From assembly GCF_017498485.1 (NCBI RefSeq), contig NZ_CP071795.1, positions 930,001 to 994,000 of the forward strand: 64,000 nt of DNA, in the 5' to 3' direction. The stretch comes from Polaribacter batillariae (GTDB lineage Bacteria > Bacteroidota > Bacteroidia > Flavobacteriales > Flavobacteriaceae). The notes under the pieces are model-generated. The model saw only the letters and a program-made list of their open reading frames with translations. It was not told the DNA's origin and ran no database searches. The position numbers were made by a program, and so were the translations under genes. Every line of letters begins with the position of its first letter. Position 1 is the stretch's first letter. Below are positions 1 through 30,800 of the stretch, one piece after another.

Positions 1-943
1 CGCTATAAATAGAAATAACATCACTCGCATTTTTTGTAGGATCTGGTGCTGGAAGTACATCTGTTTTACTTATCGTTAAAGAGCCTTTTGCTGCTACTCC
101 AGCAATACTTGCTGTTACTTTAGCTTCGCCATCAGATAAAAGAGTTACTACACCAGATTCATTAACAATTGCTACATTGTTGTCTGATGATTGAAAAGAA
201 AAATAAGAAGGGCTTATATTTAGTGTGATATCATTACCTGCCCAATTGAGCGTGTGTGTTAATTCGGAAATTGTATAATTATTGTTTAATGAAATTCGTG
301 ATTCTTGGTCTTCACCGTTAAATAGCTTTGGTCTAGACTGTCCTATAGTACCAAGTTTTTCAAACTTTACTTCATCTAACCAAAAAACATAACCACCTTC
401 GTCTGATGCATTTCTAGCTCCTTCTGCATACCAAAGCATTCCTTTTTCTGCAGTTAATTTTGATGGATCTGGAATTGGAATTACATATTTTACCCAATTG
501 GTAGTTAAAGGTAAATCATTTAATGCAACTCTAAATTTACTATTCGTATCTGGATCTATACCAAAACCTATTTCGTTTATTTTTGCTGCTTGTGAGGCTT
601 TTGCATAAAAAGTAAGGGCATCGTAACCTGTTAAGTCTCTTGGAAAACTTACTGGAAAATTTGCACCAGCATATCCTACACCAAATGCAGGTACATCTAT
701 TCTCATAGAAGCAGAACCTCTGAAAGTAGTTTCGGTATCTACAGAAAAAGCGTCTAGTTTAGAATCTCCAAAAGGATTATAATCTAAACCTGCACTAAAT
801 CCATCTATGAAAATATTTGGATTATTAGAATTATTTGCAAAAACAGCTTCGTCAGATAAATTTCTTTCGCAACTTAAGGTAAACATTAATATTAAACCTA
901 AAAGAGGTACGTATTTTATTTTTATATTTTTTAGTGTTTTCAT
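1..943 (-). CDS. Surface glycan-binding lipoprotein with Ig-like domain (3' end outside window)
   Basis: Read on the minus strand from an ATG at 943, the frame stays open for 314 codons to the window edge, so the C-terminus is missing. Residues 1-24 are a hydrophobic signal ending in a lipobox (FTLSC, Cys25), so the product should be a lipoprotein. Residues of about 30-190 look like a jelly-roll carbohydrate-binding module: they include 'FYAKAS', a typical phrase in CBM4/9-like modules, and a final strand 'VFWLDEVKFEKLG'. Residues of about 205-290 resemble a bacterial Ig-like domain (Big_2: 'VAIVNESGVVTLLSDG'). The last visible residues, 'NASDVISIYS', look like the start of another binding module. 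The gene starts 7 bases after the upstream hydrolase gene and is probably co-transcribed with it. A binding rather than catalytic role is inferred; a catalytic domain could still lie beyond the edge. Confidence 0.75.
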   Translation of the reverse strand, partial: MKTLKNIKIKYVPLLGLILMFTLSCERNLSDEAVFANNSNNPNIFIDGFSAGLDYNPFGDSKLDAFSVDTETTFRGSASMRIDVPAFGVGYAGANFPVSFPRDLTGYDALTFYAKASQAAKINEIGFGIDPDTNSKFRVALNDLPLTTNWVKYVIPIPDPSKLTAEKGMLWYAEGARNASDEGGYVFWLDEVKFEKLGTIGQSRPKLFNGEDQESRISLNNNYTISELTHTLNWAGNDITLNISPSYFSFQSSDNNVAIVNESGVVTLLSDGEAKVTASIAGVAAKGSLTISKTDVLPAPDPTKNASDVISIYS

Positions 944-950
944 TTGTGTC

Positions 951-3900
951 TTATTTACCAATGTTAATATGAATATATGTTCTTATTTCCCATTCTGAAC
1001 CATTAGGAAACCCAACAGGACTGATTCTTGGTACAGTTTCAAATTCTGATGCAGTTGCCGTAGGTAAATATCTTGGTGAGAACTCATTTAAAGAACGCCA
1101 AGTTCCGCGAAGTCCAATTTTAGTATCTGGTAAAATAAACCAATCTGGTTTGCCTACAGTTGTAGATACATCTAACATTAATTGAACAGGGAATGTTAAG
1201 TTAAAATCTCTATGATAGTCAAAAGGTCCCCAATCGTTAATTTTCCAGGTATGAACTAATTTAAATTTATTATAAATCATTCTAATATCTCCCCCAAAAC
1301 GTTCTATGGTTCTTGCGTCACTTCCGTTTGCTTGTGCATTTCCAAAATAGATGTTTGCAATGACTCCTAAATCTGGATTTACTTTAGATACAATTCTCGA
1401 ATTTACCTCCCAAAGATCTTTTGCTGGAGCAGATTTATCAAATGCAAAAGAAGTACGATTTGCGAAGAAACCAATTGCAGCATCTTGTGTCGTTGGTAGA
1501 TGACGATATACAAAACCTAAATTGAATGCAAATTTTGCGTCTTCTGCCCTATCATTATCCCATTGATACATATACGTAGCAGGGGTTGGATCGTATGTAA
1601 ATAAAATTTCTCCTGCTGTAGTTTCTCTATTTCCACCTCTTACTACAAATGGATCATCTATAAAGTTTCTAAGTCTTCCAGGTGCACCAATATCGTTGGG
1701 CATTGCTGCTACCAATGGTTTTTGATATAAGAAATTTGGTGCTATTTGAAATTTGCCACCAAAATTATAAGCAATTCCCGTTAAAAAATTATTCATGTTA
1801 CCACTTCCAGAATCTTTTAATTTCCATCCTGTAAAAGTAAGCGTTGGATCTGCACCTCCATTTGCTACTAAGCCCATAACAGAACCTTGTGCATACCAAT
1901 TAAAGCCTCCGTTAGAATACGTTATTTTAGCTTTACCCCCCAATTGTCTTTAGAATTTATTCTATCGTTATATACTATATAGTTACCTGAAGTTCCAGTT
2001 GCTACTTGAAAAGTTCTACCATTTAATGGTCTTCCTGCCCAAATTGCTCCCAATTGAAAACCAAAATGTGTTCCTTTTTTTTCGAAAGCAATCGTAGCTC
2101 TTTCTGTTGGTAAAAAAGGAATAACCCCAGTTCTTGTTTGTGCGGGATCTAAAATACGATTTCCATTTTCGTCTATACCATTACCTGAAACTAAATCTTT
2201 ATGATAAACCGCAGAGAAATCTAATCCTGCAATTTTTCTTTGATATTTTAACAATACTGCAGGGTTTGCTCCCCACCATAATTGAGGGCCAAAAGCTGCC
2301 TTTAAGCCAGATAAAACTCCTTTACCATCTACTTCCATCCCTAAAATTTCACCATTGTAAATATCTAAGTTAGGACCATAATTTGCTTCTGGATACAATC
2401 CGAAGAAATCGCCTTCATATCCCCAGTGATAATGACCCGTTCTGTAAAAACCTCTCATGTCAAAACCCTTAGCATTCCACTCAAATTCTGCATTGTAAAC
2501 CCTTAATCTATTGTTATCTGTTAAAGTTACAACACCATCTGGAGTATCTACTTGTATGGGTCTTCCTACATTTTCGTAAAAAATATCGTCAATAGGATTA
2601 CCAGCAACATTTCCTAAAATATTAAAATTAACTTCTGCCTTCATATTGTTTGTAGGTTTTCCTTGAACTCCTATATAGTAAGACTGCATGTGATCAAACC
2701 CTAGTTTATTTGGATAAGTTTGTCCTGTACCATCTGCAACATTTGGAGTTTTAATTAAAGAACCTCCTGTATTAAACGTTGTAAACTCGGCTCTTAAATT
2801 CGTTAAGGATATTTTTTCTGTGCCTCCAACTGATGCTTTATCTCCTCTTGCTCTAAGCACAGCATCCATTAAATTAATGTTCTTAAAATGATTTTCGAAT
2901 TCTGTAGCGTTGCTTTTAAAAGGATTGAATTTATGAACTTCTTTAAGTGCATAATAAGCTGCTCTTGGGTATAAGGTATATAAACCTCTAATGTCTGTTG
3001 GCCCTTTTGCTGCAATACCAAACCATTCTTCATTCATATTTTTATCACCAGGTTTGGCTTGATCTCTGCTATATCCATTACTTGGCCATGAGGCTTTGGT
3101 ATCATGGATATCCGCATTTTTTCTTTCATCAAACCCCGCTTTAAACCAACCATCACTAGATTGAAAGGTAAAACCTCCAATGGAGTTTTCTGCTTTTCCT
3201 AAACCATAAGAATTGGCATATATTTCTTTCCAGTTATTTACCATGTAATATGCTTGCATTAGCTGGTCTTCTTTATTGTCTCTTGCATTGTAGGCATCTG
3301 AACCAAACTCTGTAAATAATATGGGTTTGTTAAATTCTTTCTTTACTTTATCAAAAGCGTCATAAAAAGAAACTCCACGATACATATTGGTACCATAGAT
3401 GTCTAAATCTTTACACTCTTGTGCAACAATATCTAAATACAATAAATCGCCATTACAAATTCCTATTGGGTGGTTTTTATCAACCGCTTTCATAGCCAAA
3501 GCTGCATCATTAAATAGCTTGTACATTGCTCTTGCTTCTGCTCTTTTAGCCTTGTCTTGGTCGTTAATTACAATACCTTCATCGGTTTCTGCGCCTTCCC
3601 AAGTTAAGTGATAGTTGTTTTCGTTACCCAACATAAAAAGTAAAAGACCTGGTGTATTTTTATACAAATTGGCCATTTTAACGGATGCTTCTATTAAATG
3701 TTTTCTAACTTTTTCGGTGCCATATTTTGTTTTTGGATACCACACACCATCTAGTGTTAAGCCATAAGCTCCGAACTGATGATTTATCATCGTATAAATA
3801 CCAAAGTTTTCGTAGATGTAAGTTATCCATTTAGGAGGCATGCCTATATAAGTTCTAATTGCATTAACTCCCATATTTTGCCACAAAGCCATTTCTTCGT

Positions 3901-4126
3901 CTAAACCTGCTTTGATAATGTCATCTGGTTTTTCCCAAAATTTTGCATCCAATACGTTGTAACCTATTGGAACATAATCCCAATTGATACCATTTACAAT
4001 AAATGGTTTACCATCTACTTCTAATCTTATACCTTTACCGTCTTTTACTATAGCAACTTTTTCGCTCTGCGCATAGAAACTTAGTGTAAACAAGACAAGT
4101 ACTAATCTTAGTAAACTGTTTTTCAT
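951..4126 (-). CDS. TIM-barrel glycoside hydrolase (GH2-like) with outer-membrane-barrel-like C-terminus; frameshifted
   Basis: Two minus-strand frames (4126-1922 and 1943-951) make one protein of about 1058 residues if one G is added to the G6 run at 1936-1941; the length then becomes a multiple of three. Residues 1-19 are a signal peptide. Residues of about 22-410 form a clan GH-A TIM barrel like the catalytic domain of GH2: the likely acid/base is the second E-containing motif 'LGNENN' and the likely nucleophile is E in 'LFTEFGSD'. Residues of about 430-1058 are rich in alternating aromatic strands ('FDMRGFYRTGHYHWGYEG', 'FKLVHTWKINDWGPF') and end in a strand 'IRTYIHINIGK', resembling an outer-membrane beta-barrel. 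No T9SS tail is present. The neighbouring regulator and binding lipoprotein suggest polysaccharide use. The substrate is unknown; beta-glucan is one guess. Confidence 0.72.
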
Positions 4127-4831: not shown

Positions 4832-7632
4832 TTAAATCTCTAATATGTAATTCGTTAAGTTTGAATCGTGAGGTAAATTCATTTTTTTTCTAAGACGATA
4901 TCTCTTAACCTCTACACTTCTTGGTGAGATATTTAATAAAGGTGCAATTTCTTTTGAAGATAAATTTAACCTAAGGTATGCACACAATCTTAAATCGTTT
5001 GGAGTAAGTGTTGGATGTTTCTCTTTTACTTTTTTTAAGAATTTTTTATCTGCATTATTAAAAGCTTCTTGAAACATTTTCCAATCGTCTGTATTGTTTA
5101 GGTTTTTATCAATAATCTTAACGACCTTCGCAACACTTTTTTCTCCGCCATTAATCAATTCTGTTTTAATTGTGTTTAAAAATTCGTTCTTTTTAATGAT
5201 ATTCATAGTAGAAGTAGCCAGTTCTTTATTTTTATTATCAATATCGTTTCTTAATTTTTCGTTATTCAGTTTAATTATTTCTTGTGTACTTGCGAGTTCT
5301 TTAAGTTCGGCTTCTTTTTTTGTTTTTTCTAACAAATCTTCTCTTTGTTTTTTATAATATCTTTTCGAGGCTATATGCACACTATAAAACGCAAATAAAG
5401 ATGATAACACATACATTGTAATTAATAGATTAGATATGTACCAAGGCCTTGCTATTGTAAATTTATAGGTCGCAATATTTGCACTTTGAGTGCCCCTACA
5501 AGACCTCTTACTTTAAAGGTATAATTGCCATAAGAAAGGTTTTCGAAAAGTATGGAGTAATTTTTAGAAGGAGAACTCCACGTTTTATTAACCCCTTCTA
5601 ATTGGTATTGATATTTAGTGTTTAATGTTTTTTTATAATTAGGCACACTAAAGAAAAATTCTAAGTTGTTATTCTTATAGCTTAAGTCTGCACTTTTATT
5701 AAGATTTAAATTCTGTTTCGAGCCATCTGTTTCGAAACACTGTACTTTATTAATAAAAACTGTAAAGGGAGAAGTTTCTTTTAGTGATTTTAAATCCACT
5801 TGAATGTAGCCATTTGATGTTCCAATTAGATAAACATCGTTATTAATATGAAGAATATTTTCGTAACCAGATGCAGCTTTAGGAATCGATTCTGAAATTG
5901 GAATTGTACTAATATTGGGTTTATCGCTTAGTTTTCCGGGTGATAAATATTTAATATGATCTTTAGAAAAAAACCATAACTTATCACTAGAAGTGTTGTA
6001 AACCAACCTTGCAGAAATAAAAGCATCGTCTGAAATTAATTTGCTATACAAACTGTCTTTCTGAAACGTAGCTTTATCTTTATGATACACATAAACACCT
6101 TTTTTACTGGCATACAAAATTTTGTTTCTATATTTTAAAATACTAGAGTGAATGCCTTTTGTTAATGATTTTTCTTTTTCTAGTTTGGTTACATTTTTTA
6201 ACTCCTTATCTATAGTTAACTTAAAAACCCCTTTATATTCGTGGTTAACAAAAAACTGATTCTCATCAAATTCTACAAGATACTTGCTAGAGTTATCAAA
6301 ACCTTTTATTTTGTTTTCTAACTGCCAAAAATTATTTTTCTTTTTAAGCACGTACAAGCCATCGTAACATCCTTGAATTATAGTAAAATCGTCAATTTTT
6401 AAAATATCCCAGGTTCCTTGTTTATTAAAAATATTTGTTGCTTTGTCTTCGGTTATGATAAATGTTCCTGAATCGTGACCGCAAAATAAATTATTATCTA
6501 TTTTTGTTAAACTCCAAACCTGACCTTGCGTGTTGGCAACAAATTTAAAAGCGTCTTTTGAGTTTAATTCTCTATAAAACAACCCTTGATTTGTGCCTAA
6601 ATAAAGGTTTTTACCATGTACTATGGATGTATAAATAGTACCTAAAAAATCGCTTTTTCTATTGTACATTTTAAAAGGCGATGTATTATTAATGCAATCG
6701 ATTCCGTTATCTAAGCCCAACCAAAGGTTATTTTCTCGATCTTCAAAAATCGATAAGACTGTATTATTATTTAACCCAATATTTTGTGCTACTTTATAAT
6801 TTAAGGTACCATCTGCATTTAGGTTGAATAAGCCATTTGAGATACTTCCTAAAGCAAAGTTTTTATTTTTTAGCTGCTTTGCACTGTATATTGTTTTATT
6901 AGAAAGTAAATCATCGGAAGCAATATTCCATTTTAATAACTCTTTATTTTTAAAATAATAGAAACCACTTTGTTGTGTTATAAAAAAAAGCTTGTTGTTT
7001 TTATTAAAAATTTCTACAACAACATTCTCTTTTAGCACCTTATGGTTCGAAACTAATTTTGCTTTTCCGTTTTCTATTTTAAATAATCCTTTTTTATTTT
7101 CATGAAAATAAATAACATCGTTTACTTTACATAATTTATTAATTCTGTTTTCTACATTTATAATTTTAACCAATTTAGATTCTAAATTGTAGAGGTATAT
7201 TCTTTGTAAAGATTTAAAAATCATCCAGCCATCTATCTCTACAATATTCCAAATTTGTTCATCTTCTAACATTTGAACCTTTTGCTGTTTCGCAATTGAA
7301 GTAAAATTTAGCTCTCCAAATTCATCTTTAATCCAAAAACCAAAATCCATATAAAACCCTGTAAAAATTTTATTGTCATGTGATTTTACAGATCTCATAA
7401 TTGTTTCATTGGGGGTTTCAAACAACCTCCATGTTGCACCATTATATTCTAAAAGACCTTTATTGTTAGCAACATATATAAATCCTTCTTCGCATTGTGA
7501 AATTGCCCAATTTTGATTTTCTGCTTGATAATCGTCTGTGTAAAAAATGTTTATTGGCGGAAACTCTTGGGCATAATGCAAGCTACTTACAAAAAGAAAT
7601 AACTGTAAAAAGAAAAGTCTTAACCTAATCAT
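4832..7632 (-). CDS. Propeller-type sensor regulator with LuxR-like HTH (Y_Y_Y domain); frameshifted
   Basis: The frames 7632-5452 and 5416-4832 join into one protein of about 933 residues when one G is added to the G4 run at 5493-5496. The bridge then reads through 'ANIATYKFTIARPWYI', which neither annotated piece contains. Order of parts: signal peptide (1-21); two-component-regulator propeller repeats ('NLWLGLDNGI', 'YLGTNQGLFY', roughly 25-630); a Y_Y_Y domain (about 640-725); one membrane segment (about 730-752); a coiled coil (about 757-840); and a LuxR-like DNA-binding region ('SSKEIAPLLNISPRSVEVKRYRLRKK'-type, described here by its start 'SSKEIAPLLNISPRSVEV'). There is no kinase domain. 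Such proteins are membrane-spanning sensors that detect glycan fragments in the periplasm and bind DNA directly. The adjacent leftward hydrolase operon is the likely target. Confidence 0.85.
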
Positions 7633-11222: not shown

Positions 11223-13858
11223 TTATTTGTTTATAATTATCTTTTTTATTATTCTTTTATTGTTTTCAGCTTTAAATACTAAGAAATACAATCCGTTTTT
11301 ATAAGATGAAAGATCAATTCTTTTTACAGGAGAATCGATTGTCATAACCTTACTTCCTAACGTGCTAAACAAATAAATTTGATGAATTTTTATATTCGTG
11401 TTTACAGTAATATAATCTTTGGTTATAGTTGGGTAAACAGAAATTTGATTGTTAAGAAGATGATCGCCAATACTTAATGTGGTCTCAAATTGACCAACCA
11501 TCTCATCGAAATAATAATTTGTAGCCGTTTTACCAGCAAGCAGTCTTAGAGAAATTCCTGAGGTAGCTTCTGTAATTTTAGCTGTTAAGGTGTATTTTGC
11601 GTATGATGTTGTTAATGTTGGAAAAATTCCCGGAAAATCGGAACCTCCAGCAGTTTTATCTACCTTTAACTGAATTCCTACTTGTGCTGCTACATCAGAT
11701 TTTGCCCAAACATCAACAGTGATGGTTTTTCCATTAAAATCTCCATTATATTTTACATTCTCAAACCTAATATCTCCTAATTTTGGAGTGGCTAATGTAT
11801 TTACTTGGGTGGTTGCTATTTTAAAGGCGTTACTACCTTCATTTACCATGGTACTTTCATCAGAAAATGTAGCTTCAGCATCTGTAGAATTAGATATCAT
11901 ACCAGACCAACTACCATCTGCTAATAAACATTCTGCATTTCCATTTGCAATTATATTTTCATTAGAAGCAGTACAAGCTGTATGGTTAATTGTAATAATG
12001 CTAATGCTGTAAGCTGGAATATTTAAATTGCCGGCAGTTGCTGTTTGGGAACTAGTACTCCAAGGATTGGTATTGTTTGCATAAGCTGTTGTTAATTCTG
12101 ATGTAATATCTTCCGAAAAAGTTTTAATTGAATAATTGCCACTATAAGCAACACCATCTACCGCAAAATTTAAAGTTGAAGCAACAGGTAATTTATTAAC
12201 AACAAATAACTTGTAGTCGGTACCAGTATTTACCGCTTTTGCATACAAGCCTTCTAAGCCAGTTTCTAATTCTGGACCAGAGCTATAAGCGTCATACACT
12301 TCGTTATTTTTAAAAACTTCAAAAAGAGATGCATACATTACCCCTAATGCAGTTAGTTTCATTTGCCCACTATTTACATCTAAAAAGGTTAATGTAGCTT
12401 CTGAATAAATGTTGTTTCTCCATAACATATGAATTCCTGCTTGTTCTACAATTCCTTGTTGATGCCCTTTTTCTAAAGCCAAAAACACATCTGCACTGGC
12501 CAATGTTTGGGTAAAATTAACTGGAATATCATCAGATAAAACACCCCATTCTGTTATTAAAGCTGCTTTTCCTGGAAAGTTTGTACCAAATTTAGCAACT
12601 CTTTCTTGAGTTATTTTGTAAGAATTCATCATTTTATAAACGGTAGAACCACTGTATAAAAACGAATTTGTGTTATTGTAGTTATGAAACGTTGCTGCTT
12701 CAAAATAATCGTTAGACTGTGTAGCTTGTTTTATACTATTATTCCAACTACCTGTAAAATAATAATCTTTTTCTAAACAAACTGCTGCCTTTACATTTGG
12801 ATTAACAGTTTTTAGTTGCGTAACCATGTTTTGGGTGTGAGAAATATAAGTTGTAACATCAGTAACATTGCCTCCTTGTTGCTCTGAGTGAAAGTTTTCG
12901 TTTCCTAATTCAATCCATTTTACGTCTAAGCCGTCATTTAATCTACTTTGATATCTGTTTTTTGATGCTTCTGGTGAGTCTATTAAAACATTAAACATTA
13001 AAGTTGATGATGCATTCGTGTTTATACAAACATCTTTATAATCAGCATAATCAAATTTATATGTATCACTGTGGTTGCCAATAGTAATGCCATTTGAGCC
13101 TTGTGGATGGTAGCCATCTGTATTCCAATTATAATAATTCCCTACAGTGCCTCCTGGAAATCTAAAGTTAGTTTGCGGAAACCAGTTATTAATAACTTGA
13201 CTAGTTTCTGGTGAACCCAAGAGTAACCACCTCGGTTTTCTAAAAACCTAAAATGTGTATTTGACGATAATAAATCGTTATTAAAAGTATGTTTACTATT
13301 CGTATCTATACTTAAATTATAAGTTGGGTTTGCAGGTACTGAGAATGGAAATGCAAATTCCATTGCCGGTTCGACATTTGTAATTACTGGATTTTTAATT
13401 TTCATGGTACCAGTAGCACTTTGCATTAAGAATTCTACTCTTACAGAGCTAATTGCTAAAGTGTTGTATTTTTTTATTTTAACACCTACTTTATAAAAAG
13501 CGTTAAAAGGGTGTTTTGTTAAATTTTCTGCGACTAAAAGATTGCTTGTACCTCCTTTATAAACTTTTACTCTAGGCGATTGAAACACCCTATTTCCATA
13601 ACCAATATTAGTAAGTTCTATTTCTGCAGTTATATAAACGGTGCTATAGGTGTTAGAAACAGGCACATCTAAATATACTCTTCTAATTCCTGAAGTTGCT
13701 CCAACTATGGTATATTCGTTTCCAGAAAGAGAAATTCCTGCACCTTCTTCTGTCCAAGTATTGGTGTTAAAATTAATGTCTGCTGGTAATGTTTGCCCCA
13801 ATAAACTAGTTGCGATAAATAGCGTAAATACTATTTTTAAAAGTATCTTTTTATTCAT
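11223..13858 (-). CDS. T9SS-secreted clan GH-A glycoside hydrolase with CBM; frameshifted
   Basis: The frames 13858-13142 and 13220-11223 join into an 878-residue protein when one G is added at the G3 run at 13216-13218. The preferred start (13858) opens a clean signal peptide, MNKKILLKIVFTLFIA. Residues of about 25-160 form a beta-rich N-terminal module. Residues of about 165-560 are a TIM barrel of the GH51/GH39/GH79 type: 'FRFPGGTVGNYYNW', acid/base E321 in 'WIELGNENFH', nucleophile E437 in 'LITEWGV'. A CBM4/9-like module (about 640-790) and a T9SS type A sorting tail ('ISVYPTITKDYITV'...'IIKKIIINK') follow. It is therefore predicted to act outside the cell. The exact GH family is uncertain. 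A good promoter precedes it. Confidence 0.78.
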
Positions 13859-13888
13859 TTTTTTTATTTCTGTAAAAGTAATACATAA

Positions 13889-13921
13889 CAAAGCTAATAA
13901 AGTTCAAAAAACATCAAAAAA
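13889..13921 (-). promoter_or_regulatory. Promoter of the secreted GH-A enzyme gene
   Basis: On the minus strand, TAGCTTTG (13896-13889) matches TAnnTTTG exactly and a TTTTTTG (13921-13915) is placed 18 bases upstream as the -33 box. The start codon at 13858 follows 30 bases later. Confidence 0.6.
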
Positions 13922-25841: not shown

Positions 25842-28800
25842 ATGGTAAAATTTAAACTCTTAATTACTGCATGTCTTTTTCTCTGCATGCACAATGCTTT
25901 TTCTCAAGAGAAAACAATTACTGGTCTCGTAAAAGATGTTACTGGATCTCCCATCCCTGGAGTTTCAGTGTCTATACTAGGAGAAACTAGAGGAACCAAT
26001 ACAGATTTTGACGGAAAATTTTCTTTAAAAAATGTAAAAACAACAGATAAATTAATGTTTTCTTACATAGGAATGAAAGAGCAAATTATTCTTGTTGGAG
26101 ATAAAACGACAATCGATGTAACTTTATTAGATTCTCAAGAAGTTTTAGACGAAATAATAGTTGTTGGTTATGGTACACAAAAAAAAGGGTTAGTTACGGG
26201 TTCTAATGTAAATTTAAAAGGCGCTGTATTAGAAGAATTAAACACAGCCTCTCCTATTGAAGGCTTGCAGGGTATAGCCCCAGGTGTAAATATTACAAGA
26301 AACAATGGGCAACCAGGAGCAGGAACTAAAGTTACAATTCGTGGTTTAGGTACCAATGGTAACTCGAACCCTTTGTATATAGTAGATGGTATTGCGGTTG
26401 GTAATATAGACTACTTAAATGCATCAGACATACAATCTTTAGATGTTTTAAAAGATGCAGCTTCTGCAGCAATTTACGGTTCTAGAGCTGCAAATGGTGT
26501 TATTTTAGTAACAACAGTTAAAGGTAGAAAAAATACAGCTGCAAAAATATCTTTCAATTCTTATTACGGTATTCAAAATATTTATAAAAGTGCCACACCT
26601 TTAAATGCACAAGAATACATGTATATTATTGACGAAGGTTTTGCAAACGATGGTAAAGCACTTAATAATTGGGAAGCTATGGTAAAAAACAATAGCTGGT
26701 TAAACGATAATTACCCAGGCAATTTAGGAGATCAATTAGGTACTGAAATTTGGAACAACATACAAAATGGAGGCAAAGGAACCAATTGGTTCGATGAAAT
26801 TACTTCAAAAAACGCTGCAATTACTAGTCATACTCTTAATATTACTGGAGGTGGTGAAAACAATGTGTACTCTCTAGGTATCTCTTATTTTAACCAAGAA
26901 GGTTTAATAGGAAACCATATTACTAATGCAGGTTTTAAAAGATTAACAGCAAGATTAAATACAGAATTTGTGTTAAGAAAAAACGACAAACATAATATCT
27001 TAACGCTTGGACAAAATCTTACCTACACCAATACAGATAATAGAAATGTAGCAACTGGCAATATTTATTATAATGATTTACACAATGCTTTAGTGCAAAA
27101 TCCATTAATGCCAGCATATTGGCAACCTTCTATAGATAATAATGTAAACGAATATGGTTTTACACCTACTTTAAATGGTATTGCAGACAACCAACACAAC
27201 CCTTTAGGTGTTTTGTTTTATAGACACAATTTTAATAATTTAGGAAATCAGAACAACAAAATTGTTGGAAATGTTTATACAGAATTAGAGCCCATAAAAA
27301 ACTTAAAATTTAAATCGGTTTTCGGTTTCGATTCTTGGTTTGGGCATTCAAGATCTTATTCGCCAGTATTTGCTCTTGGTTTAAAATACTTAAACACAAA
27401 AGATGCTGTTTCTCAAAGTCAATATCAAGGAACCAATATAACATTTACCAATACAGCATCTTATAAACATTCTTTTGGAAACCATACTATTGATGGATTA
27501 TTAGGTGTAGAAGTCTTTAAAAATAAATTAAATGTAAATGTTAGTGGTAGAAAATCAGGATCTATTTTTGGAGATCCAGAATTTGCATATTTAGATAATT
27601 TTGGAACAATCGATAATTTGAGTAATATTAGTACAAATGGTAAAGATGCTTTTGCTGGTGGTGGTGGTTTACTGTCTTACTTTGGCAGAGCTCAATACAA
27701 TTACAAAGAAAAATATTTATTTACTGCAATAATGCGTGCAGATGGTTCGTCGAACTTTTCAAAAAATAATAGATGGGGATATTTCCCTTCATTCTCTGCA
27801 GGTTGGGTAATATCAGACGAAGAGTTTATGAGCACAACTTCTAGCTTTTTAGATTACGCTAAAGTAAGAGCGAGTTGGGGGCAAAATGGAAACCAATCTG
27901 TTAATAACTTTATTTATAGCTCTACAATTGAGTATTCCGAAGATATTGGATATTATTTTGGAGACTCTAAACCCGTTTCTGTTGATGCAGCATTTCCTGC
28001 AAGAGTACCCAATCCAGATATTAAGTGGGAAACTTCTGAACAATTAAATTTTGGAATAGACACTAGGCTATTCGATTCAAAACTAGGGCTGTCTTTAGAT
28101 TGGTATAAAAAAACAACTAAAGATTGGCTTGTACAAGCACAAGTATTAGGTACAGCAGGTGCAGAAGCTCCTATAATTAATGGAGGCGATATCGAAAACT
28201 CTGGTGTTGAGTTTGTTTTAAACTGGGACGACAATATTGGTAACGTTAAATACGGAGCAACCATTAGTGGCGCTTTTAATAAAAATAAAATTACTAGAAT
28301 TGCAAATGCAGATGGTGTTTTTAACGGTCTTTCAAATGTACTTTCGCAAGGAACTGCATCTATTTCTAGAGCATCTGTTGGTTTGCCAATAGGATATTTC
28401 TACGGATTTAAAGCAGATGGTATTTTACAAAATCAAGATGAAGTTGATGCTTACGTAACTCCAAATGGAGACCCTTATTTTGCAGACCAACGTCCTGGAG
28501 ATGTACGTTTTGTAGATCAAAATCAAGATGGGGTTATCGATGATAAAGATAAAGTAATGTTAGGAAATCCACACCCAGATTTTGAATTAGGTGTTCAACT
28601 AAATGCAGAATACAAAGGATTTTATGCCAATGTAACTATGGCTGGTAAATTTGGTATGCAAGTAATGAAATCGTACCGTTCTTTTGTAGATAGAATATAT
28701 GAAAACTATACAACCGAAATTTTTGGACGTTGGCACGGTGAAGGAACTTCAAACAAAATACCTCGTTTAGGCGCTAGCGCTCATAGAAATACCTCTTTTG

Positions 28801-29069
28801 TATCAGATATTTTTATGCACAATGCAGATTATTTGAGAATTAACAATTTAACTATTGGAGTAAATTTAGATCAATATTTAAAAAATGTAAACTTTGCATC
28901 GAAAATCAAAATCTATGCTTCTGTTAACAATTTGTACACTTTTACAAACTATAATGGTATGGATCCAGAAGTTGGTTATGGTGGCGGAACAAATTGGGCT
29001 TCTGGTGTCGATTTAGGTTTATATCCATTACCTAGAACAGTAATATTTGGTTTAAACTTAGACTTTTAA
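25842..29069 (+). CDS. SusC-like TonB-dependent outer-membrane transporter
   Basis: 1075 residues, normal for a SusC. Signal peptide (1-21), carboxypeptidase-regulatory-like domain (about 25-105: 'ITGLVKDVTGSPIPGVSVSI'), TonB box region 'DEIIVVGYGTQKK', plug domain (about 115-225: 'PLYIVDGIAVGNIDYLNASD', 'AAIYGSRAANGVILVTT'), then a 22-strand barrel to the terminal strand ending 'VIFGLNLDF'. It forms the import channel for oligosaccharides with the SusD lid encoded next. It lies 15 bases before that gene and is probably under control of the HTCS. Confidence 0.97.
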   Translation: MVKFKLLITACLFLCMHNAFSQEKTITGLVKDVTGSPIPGVSVSILGETRGTNTDFDGKFSLKNVKTTDKLMFSYIGMKEQIILVGDKTTIDVTLLDSQEVLDEIIVVGYGTQKKGLVTGSNVNLKGAVLEELNTASPIEGLQGIAPGVNITRNNGQPGAGTKVTIRGLGTNGNSNPLYIVDGIAVGNIDYLNASDIQSLDVLKDAASAAIYGSRAANGVILVTTVKGRKNTAAKISFNSYYGIQNIYKSATPLNAQEYMYIIDEGFANDGKALNNWEAMVKNNSWLNDNYPGNLGDQLGTEIWNNIQNGGKGTNWFDEITSKNAAITSHTLNITGGGENNVYSLGISYFNQEGLIGNHITNAGFKRLTARLNTEFVLRKNDKHNILTLGQNLTYTNTDNRNVATGNIYYNDLHNALVQNPLMPAYWQPSIDNNVNEYGFTPTLNGIADNQHNPLGVLFYRHNFNNLGNQNNKIVGNVYTELEPIKNLKFKSVFGFDSWFGHSRSYSPVFALGLKYLNTKDAVSQSQYQGTNITFTNTASYKHSFGNHTIDGLLGVEVFKNKLNVNVSGRKSGSIFGDPEFAYLDNFGTIDNLSNISTNGKDAFAGGGGLLSYFGRAQYNYKEKYLFTAIMRADGSSNFSKNNRWGYFPSFSAGWVISDEEFMSTTSSFLDYAKVRASWGQNGNQSVNNFIYSSTIEYSEDIGYYFGDSKPVSVDAAFPARVPNPDIKWETSEQLNFGIDTRLFDSKLGLSLDWYKKTTKDWLVQAQVLGTAGAEAPIINGGDIENSGVEFVLNWDDNIGNVKYGATISGAFNKNKITRIANADGVFNGLSNVLSQGTASISRASVGLPIGYFYGFKADGILQNQDEVDAYVTPNGDPYFADQRPGDVRFVDQNQDGVIDDKDKVMLGNPHPDFELGVQLNAEYKGFYANVTMAGKFGMQVMKSYRSFVDRIYENYTTEIFGRWHGEGTSNKIPRLGASAHRNTSFVSDIFMHNADYLRINNLTIGVNLDQYLKNVNFASKIKIYASVNNLYTFTNYNGMDPEVGYGGGTNWASGVDLGLYPLPRTVIFGLNLDF

Positions 29070-29084
29070 TTTAAAAAATATAAA

Positions 29085-30800
29085 ATGAAAAAATTAATTT
29101 ATATATCGCTAATACTTCTCATTACAGCAACAAGTTGCGATTCAGATTATTTAGACACAAAAAATCTATATGAAAAAGATATAGACAACTTTTATAAAAC
29201 ACCTCAAGACATTAAAGATGCAATAGCAGGTGTTTACCATTCTCTTTTTACAGTATCTCCTCTTAGTAACGAGCATATTACCTCTAATTTACTATCAGAC
29301 ATGATGTTAGGTGGTGGTGGTGCAGGAGATCAACACGCTAAAAATGTAGATAATTTTTTAGACCCTGCAATAGATACTTATGCCGAATTATGGAAAGTTA
29401 CCTACAATGGTATCACTAGAGCCAACGCAATAATAGAAAAAGTAAGCGAAATTGAATTTAATACATTTTTCGATAGCCCAGCTGAAGCAAGTAAATTTAA
29501 ATCAGAAACTCTTGCTGAAGCCTATTTTATGAGAGCTTTTTTATATTTCAGAGCCGCAAAATTCTTTGGAGGCATGCCTTTAATTTTAAAAATCAACGAT
29601 GCTAGAGATGTTCCAAGAGCATCTATAACAGATACTTTTGCGCAAATCTCTTCAGATTTAAAGAAGGCAATCGAAAATTTTCCTACAGTTAATCAATTAA
29701 ACATTCCAACTTCTAGGTATGGTCATGCAAATAAATGGGTTGCAGAAGCATATTTAGGCAGAGTATATTTATATTACACTGGTTACATGACTAATATCGA
29801 AGGGCAATCTACTTCAGAACTACCTCTTGCAGAAGGTGGCAGCTTATCTAAAACCGATGTTGCCAATTTTTTACAAGATTGTATTTCAAATAGTGGCTAT
29901 CAATTAACTCCAGATTTTAGAAATATTTGGCCTTATTCGTACATAAATGAAGCTGCAGGAGCCAACGTTTTTCCATATGCTACAAATCAAAATTTATCTT
30001 GGGTAGGTCAAGACGGTCACTCTCCAACGTATGGTACAGGCAACAACGAAACTATGTTTATGGTAAGATATGCTACTTCAGAATGGGGTAGAGGCGGAAA
30101 TGGTCAAGGACCTAAATTTACAAATAGAGCCTGTCTTTTTCAAGGAATAAGAGACAATTCTACATTAGAACCATTTGGTCAAGGATGGGGTTGGTGTACA
30201 GTAAATCCTAAACTTTGGAATAATTGGGATGATGCTGACCCTAGAAAAAAAGGATCTATTATTGAAGTAGGTGATTCTGAACAAGGTACGCAAGGGTATG
30301 AAGCAGATAAAGGAGACCACGAAACAGGTTTCTTCAATAAAAAATATACACCATTGCAATTTAACGGACCAGATGGATTAAAAGGTCTTTTCCATTATAT
30401 ATACGACGATTTTGATAATTTTCAGTTATGGCATGCTCAAGATTTCATTTTAATGAGATTTGCAGATGTATTATTAATGCATTCAGAAATTACTGAAACT
30501 GCAGATGGATTAAATAGAGTTAGACAAAGAGCTAATTTAGCTCCTATTGCATACTCTTTAGATGCTTTAAAAAATGAAAGAGTGCACGAACTATCTTTTG
30601 AAGGATTACGTTGGTTCGATCTTGTAAGATGGGGAGACGTAACAACTGCCTTCGATGCTAGCATTAATGTTAGAAACTCTGGAATTGAGCAAGTATATAA
30701 AGTAAACTACAGACCAGAAACAAAAGGGTTATTGCCAATACCAGAAACAGAAATTAATTTATCTAACGGTAAATATAAGCAAAACCCAGGTTGGGAATAA
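29085..30800 (+). CDS. SusD-like glycan-binding outer-membrane lipoprotein
   Basis: 571 residues. Lipobox 'ITATSC' followed by D-S-D-Y-L-D, an acidic stretch typical of surface-exported lipoproteins in Bacteroidetes. The helical TPR-like N-terminal fold is visible in 'RANAIIEKVSEIEF' and 'ETLAEAYFMRAFLYFRA', and the RagB/SusD C-terminus in 'NERVHELSFEGLRWFDLVRWGD'. It caps the SusC channel and binds sugar chains at the cell surface. Confidence 0.97.
   Translation: MKKLIYISLILLITATSCDSDYLDTKNLYEKDIDNFYKTPQDIKDAIAGVYHSLFTVSPLSNEHITSNLLSDMMLGGGGAGDQHAKNVDNFLDPAIDTYAELWKVTYNGITRANAIIEKVSEIEFNTFFDSPAEASKFKSETLAEAYFMRAFLYFRAAKFFGGMPLILKINDARDVPRASITDTFAQISSDLKKAIENFPTVNQLNIPTSRYGHANKWVAEAYLGRVYLYYTGYMTNIEGQSTSELPLAEGGSLSKTDVANFLQDCISNSGYQLTPDFRNIWPYSYINEAAGANVFPYATNQNLSWVGQDGHSPTYGTGNNETMFMVRYATSEWGRGGNGQGPKFTNRACLFQGIRDNSTLEPFGQGWGWCTVNPKLWNNWDDADPRKKGSIIEVGDSEQGTQGYEADKGDHETGFFNKKYTPLQFNGPDGLKGLFHYIYDDFDNFQLWHAQDFILMRFADVLLMHSEITETADGLNRVRQRANLAPIAYSLDALKNERVHELSFEGLRWFDLVRWGDVTTAFDASINVRNSGIEQVYKVNYRPETKGLLPIPETEINLSNGKYKQNPGWE

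Follow-up and report, generated by a model that had tools for sequence, protein, structure and literature searches.

The window, the whole 64,000-nucleotide stretch of the Polaribacter batillariae genome analysed here, carries near its start a minus-strand gene in which an enzyme domain is joined to an outer-membrane-type beta-barrel (Table 1). The surrounding genes form a laminarin operon and are ordered as a regulator, the fusion, a Big-type lipoprotein, GH16, a PKD lipoprotein, GH149, GH17, GH30, a GPH-type MFS carrier and a further GH17. The Big-type lipoprotein, whose whole gene encodes 471 aa in a related locus (L081), is likely a surface glycan-binding protein; in 70 of 75 relatives it is the first gene recognised after the fusion, and GH16 and GH149 are present in most. 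The regulator (4832-7632) is itself frame-broken near a G-run, around 5416-5491; its counterpart in a relative from the same genus is unbroken. A separate SusC/SusD pair, belonging to another glycan locus, lies on the plus strand at 25842-30800. Operons of the same type in other genomes hold a distinct lipoprotein GH-A family of 340-355 aa, 24-27% identical (L137:8120-9148; L170:9148-10209), which perhaps fills the same role there as the fusion enzyme. Genome G719 encodes a 1093-aa protein (L135:7559-10837) in which an N-terminal extension precedes a GH-A domain of weak similarity (25%); it lies near GH16 and GH3, and its architecture is unlike that of the fusion.

Table 1. Features of the fusion gene and the adjoining genes, in window coordinates.
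Feature	Position	Strand	Basis or remark
Whole GH-barrel fusion gene	951..4126	-	Two frames here, meeting at G-run
Signal peptide MKNSLLRLVLVLFTLSFYAQ, without lipobox	4067..4126	-	Judged by eye
Clan GH-A TIM-barrel domain, GH158/GH157-like	2915..4066	-	Profile and structure model
Glu169, predicted acid/base, GNENN	3620..3622	-	Invariant in 64 relatives
Glu273, predicted nucleophile, FTEFG	3308..3310	-	Invariant in 64 relatives
Two linker helices, conserved ARGDKA, enzyme to first strand	2813..2914	-	Model
24-stranded outer-membrane-type beta-barrel, spanning frame break	954..2812	-	Model and fold matches
Lipoprotein with Big_2-like region, 7 bases downstream of fusion	2..943	-	Cut by window start
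Upstream regulator, sensor part (Reg_prop, Y_Y_Y)	5452..7632	-	Pfam
Upstream regulator, LuxR-type DNA-binding part, frame-broken from sensor	4832..5416	-	Pfam

The fusion gene is read in two different frames, 1922-4126 (734 aa) and 951-1943 (330 aa), which are broken apart at a G-run (the C-run 1936-1941 on the plus strand). The first-pass annotation had bridged this break and treated the two frames as one protein, and the relatives bear it out. About 78 relatives, 54-87% identical, were found, and nearly all of those with contig coverage carry enzyme and barrel in a single uninterrupted ORF of about 1041-1094 aa, with a shorter frame of 902 aa at one locus (L071). These one-ORF fusions are spread across the Flavobacteriia and other Bacteroidota, and the enzyme-barrel fusion is real and conserved. 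Because a genome of the same genus (L136) has the gene in one unbroken frame, the fusion is not a product of chance, and only the P. batillariae genome shows the break. Overlapping minus-strand frames of 665 and 249 aa at 11223-13891 resemble one split glycosidase gene with a secretion-type C-terminus, whose likely frame break lies near 13142-13220. Given this similar frame pair and the broken regulator, the break in the fusion gene may equally well come from sequencing error or from decay. All structure models and structural searches were made with intact relatives.

The enzyme domain belongs to clan GH-A, as had been proposed, and has both catalytic glutamate motifs. It shows the hallmarks of the clan, a TIM barrel with glutamates following strands 4 and 7 and an asparagine ahead of the acid/base. 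Glu169 lies in an NEN motif and Glu273 in TEFG, and both glutamates and the asparagine preceding the first are invariant in the 64 sequences compared. The two positions correspond to E137 and E220 of BuGH158, in which N136, E137 and E220 were shown to be essential (PMC7157763). The only Pfam match is to the GH2 TIM domain (Glyco_hydro_2_C), at 23 bits against a cut-off of 21; GH2 membership was rejected, as the flanking jelly-roll and Ig domains are absent and the TIM domain begins right after the signal peptide. A profile built from 27 relatives matched GH2, GH158 and GH157 structures at E-values of 1e-4 to 1e-3, where the GH158 values (2.7e-4 to 2.8e-4) are weak and no better than that for GH2 (1.1e-4). 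In the AlphaFold model of an intact relative the domain forms a TIM barrel, with GH158 and GH157 endo-beta-1,3-glucanases as the top Foldseek matches. VIA-align with the enzyme model also placed GH158 and GH157 in its top group, which GH5 and GH2 share at the same Z of about 25. The enzyme is most likely a beta-1,3-glucanase, a prediction with which the operon fits.

When the full-length model was submitted to VIA-align, the TIM domain matched alone, and the barrel was therefore folded and searched separately; the pTM of the full-length model, 0.51, does not predict how enzyme and barrel are placed relative to one another. Folded alone with 73 relatives in the alignment, the C-terminal ~620 residues gave a model with 24 long strands (pLDDT 77, pTM 0.74). 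The connections between these strands average 24 residues after odd strands and 5 after even ones (p about 1e-4), which places short turns on one side and long loops on the other. Foldseek matched the model to the outer-membrane barrels FepA, MOMP, BtuB, PfeA and OprC. VIA-align gave first the 24-stranded ushers FimD and PapC (Z 13, about 365 residues, nearly the whole barrel), followed by AlgE and OprD-type porins, while its longest alignment was to MtrB (414 residues). TonB-dependent transporter barrels thus lead one search and ushers the other, with 24 strands counted in the model against 22 for the former. An usher identity was rejected: the size is alike, but no usher family matches and no pilus genes lie nearby. 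The fold matches suggest that the modelled strands close into a barrel. The proposal of one large outer-membrane-type barrel is supported by the model, and the stacked beta-sandwich modules named beforehand as the outcome that would count against it did not appear. The membrane-type final strand that had also been described is present (EWEIRTYIHINIGK), but its terminal residue is lysine where an aromatic residue is usual. Cysteine is absent from the barrel. Conservation of strand residues (majority) is 0.83 for inward-facing and 0.70 for outward-facing positions, a comparison in which only the conservation contrast is informative, since the outward face was chosen by hydrophobicity; four long loops (3, 4, 7 and 11) hardly vary at all (0.89-0.98). 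Sequence searches of Pfam, NCBIfam and the PDB gave no family or relative for the barrel, and a viral structure library gave weak barrel matches only. Pfam and NCBIfam scans of the fusion detected no plug, SusC or TonB-receptor family, its N-terminus being the enzyme.

The short-turn side of outer-membrane barrels is the periplasmic one. With 24 strands and long first and last connections, both termini of the barrel would fall on the short-turn, periplasmic side, and the enzyme would be periplasmic as well, provided that its linker does not run through the pore. Such threading would make the barrel an anchor that displays the enzyme outside the cell, as in autotransporters such as EstA, and it would suit the canonical termini, the two helices of ~25 residues just before the first strand, an arrangement that autotransporters share, and a substrate that is extracellular. 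Autotransporter barrels have 12 strands, whereas the model has 24, so that the strand number of type V barrels (12 or 16) is not found here. The inner lining of the barrel is also more conserved than its outer face, and barrel-less homologues end near the linker helix, which seems to be part of the enzyme and not of a translocation unit. The signals of these barrel-less forms also argue against display. Judged by eye and with a simple lipobox pattern, several have apparent type I signals and others are lipoproteins. In Bacteroidetes, acidic residues at positions +2 to +6 mark surface lipoproteins (PMC5080379). The surface classes of the fusion loci average 1.94 (SusD), 1.97 (Big-type), 2.26 (GH16) and 3.34 (PKD) such residues, and GH17 and GH3 average 0.44 and 0.33. 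Eight barrel-less enzyme lipoproteins, three of which are more distant relatives of 340-480 aa, average 0.62, against 1.9-3.3 in the surface classes. From these periplasm-type signals the enzyme looks periplasmic, and the enzyme probably sits at the periplasmic side of the barrel; the first-pass view that the barrel holds it at the cell surface is probably wrong, and we regard surface display as unlikely.

How the fusion relates to SusC/SusD was assessed from its neighbours and from whole genomes. Among 54 loci with full upstream sequence, 31 have no SusC/D within 8 kb upstream, the regulator usually being the nearest recognised gene, and 23 have SusC/D just upstream, with SusD proteins that form a family of about 50-74% identity. 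The P. batillariae genome has 19 SusD matches, the best of them 33% identical to the laminarin-type SusD, and its best SusC proteins are 36-38% identical to the laminarin-type SusC; no close relative of either was found in it. A laminarin-type SusD is present in 11 of the 19 other fused genomes and missing from eight. With SusC/D upstream in 23 loci and a laminarin-type SusD in these 11 genomes, the barrel is not always the sole route. In genome G657 (98% complete, 1.8 Mb), one of the eight, a search that was positive in the other seven found no SusD, and no SusC-like match appeared at E 1e-30. Its fusion is intact, lies on a short contig (L173), and is the obvious outer-membrane route there, a general porin being another possible one. 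The only partners visible on this contig are a Big-type lipoprotein, GH16 and a sugar carrier, which makes a minimal set.

The enzyme occurs without the barrel in at least nine genomes. In a tree of the enzyme domain, made by a quick method and with several weak forks, the barrel-less forms require at least six changes among the fused ones and often sit on long branches, which suggests that the barrel was lost repeatedly. No standalone barrel was found in 395 genomes, where the barrel fragments seen lie at contig ends or in broken genes. Since the barrel was never found without the enzyme in these genomes while the enzyme occurs without the barrel, dependence runs only from barrel to enzyme, which would be expected of a barrel that serves the enzyme's substrate. 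Barrel loss is not demonstrably associated with SusCD in the operon, SusCD being present in 4/9 barrel-less loci and 23/54 fused loci; nor is the absence of a nearby SusCD specific to the fused form, with about half of the barrel-less loci likewise lacking it. At four loci (L132, L133, L134 and L164, in G449, G930, G304 and G104) the barrel-less enzyme lies in laminarin operons with SusC/SusD, and some of these enzymes have longer branches than the fused forms.

We consider it reasonably probable that the fusion is an outer-membrane channel dedicated to glucan, with its own glucanase tethered at the periplasmic mouth; the fusion, its operon and its occurrence without a laminarin-type SusCD are seen in the sequences and the barrel-type fold in the models, and transport, sidedness and substrate are extrapolated from them. 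Under such a scheme, the surface lipoproteins (the Big-type and PKD binding proteins and GH16) would bind laminarin and make the first cut. The fragments would then pass through the barrel and be cut again on emerging by the GH158/GH157-like endo-beta-1,3-glucanase, after which the GH17 and GH30 lipoproteins would complete degradation in the periplasm. Finally, the MFS carrier would import the short products, which GH149 would phosphorolyse in the cytoplasm. The fusion could in this way replace SusC/SusD. It speaks against a channel that a 24-stranded pore would be expected to be gated while no plug was identified, and that the gene is broken in the P. batillariae genome.

If the barrel did not conduct glucan, it could fix the glucanase to the outer membrane as a periplasmic anchor only, with uptake left to SusC/D elsewhere. 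SusC/D adjoin the fusion in the 23 loci already mentioned, the enzyme was retained through several losses of the barrel, and one of the 19 SusD genes of P. batillariae adjoins another GH16, all of which suits an anchor. A lipid anchor would suffice for that role, however, as in the barrel-less forms; the lumen and loops of the barrel are conserved; the SusC/SusD proteins of P. batillariae are not of the laminarin type; and G657 has no SusD. We therefore rate an anchor as rather improbable. Very doubtful is an export pore, in which a trimming hydrolase would act with a polysaccharide-secreting barrel as in PgaA/PgaB or AlgE: the fold matches include AlgE and ushers, and exporters share the hydrolase-plus-barrel layout, but the locus is without a synthase or polymerase and all neighbours degrade or import beta-glucan. 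An artefactual join of two adjoining genes, which the two frames of the window might suggest, has virtually no chance of being correct, as it is already refuted by the one uninterrupted ORF of nearly all covered relatives and by a profile search in which the barrel was found only behind the enzyme.

Genes in published laminarin loci probably represent the same fusion, judging by their operon company. In Muricauda laminarin loci the candidate is named 'GH2 beta-glycosidase' (PMC13188888); in North Sea laminarin loci with high expression, including one without susCD, it is 'GH0' (PMC10108472). No mention of a barrel was found in either text, and among open-licence papers no description of such an enzyme-barrel fusion was found. 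FORMB_11920, a Formosa porin that was also considered, is a different gene, nitrogen-linked by its described context. Laminarin represents one of the largest marine carbon fluxes, and its uptake by Bacteroidota is inferred from SusC/SusD genes. If the fusion is an importer, laminarin uptake would be under-counted where there is no SusCD, and a single chain would couple hydrolysis to transport across the outer membrane. The barrel, for which Pfam, NCBIfam and the PDB hold no sequence relative that we found, may represent a Bacteroidota glycan importer of a new class, a 24-stranded family always joined to a periplasmic glucanase, that imports laminarin without SusC/SusD and couples entry to hydrolysis, a broader reading that we advance tentatively. 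As an importer, the fusion would offer a compact alternative to the Sus complex with its several lipoproteins, and one open to testing.

The enzyme of the fusion shares with GH158 (BuGH158, GH158(Pro)) and GH157 the GH-A TIM barrel, the NE and TEFG motifs and a laminarin-type operon, but the identity is only about 20%, and where the C-terminus of BuGH158 is an Ig-like domain (PMC7157763), that of the fusion is a membrane barrel. Type V secretion proteins (EstA, PlpD) likewise combine an N-terminal enzyme and a C-terminal barrel in one chain; they have 12 or 16 strands and a surface or secreted passenger, whereas the fusion has 24 strands and evidence for a periplasmic enzyme. The export systems PgaA/PgaB, AlgE and BcsC also place a hydrolase at an outer-membrane barrel, but they work in the direction of export, mostly keep the hydrolase on a separate chain, have 16-18 strands and belong to a synthase operon. 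Formosa laminarin loci encode an MFS-GH17 fusion (PMC6246565) that likewise joins a transporter and a laminarin hydrolase of the same pathway in one polypeptide, although the transporter is an inner-membrane carrier and not an outer-membrane barrel, and the enzyme family is unrelated. SusC/SusD is matched by the fusion in gene order, since in both glycan operons the regulator is followed first by a large outer-membrane barrel and then by a surface lipoprotein. In contrast to SusC, the fusion has no plug, carboxypeptidase-like or TonB-box region that we could see, counts 24 strands instead of 22, is partnered by a lipoprotein other than SusD, and carries its enzyme in the same chain as its barrel.
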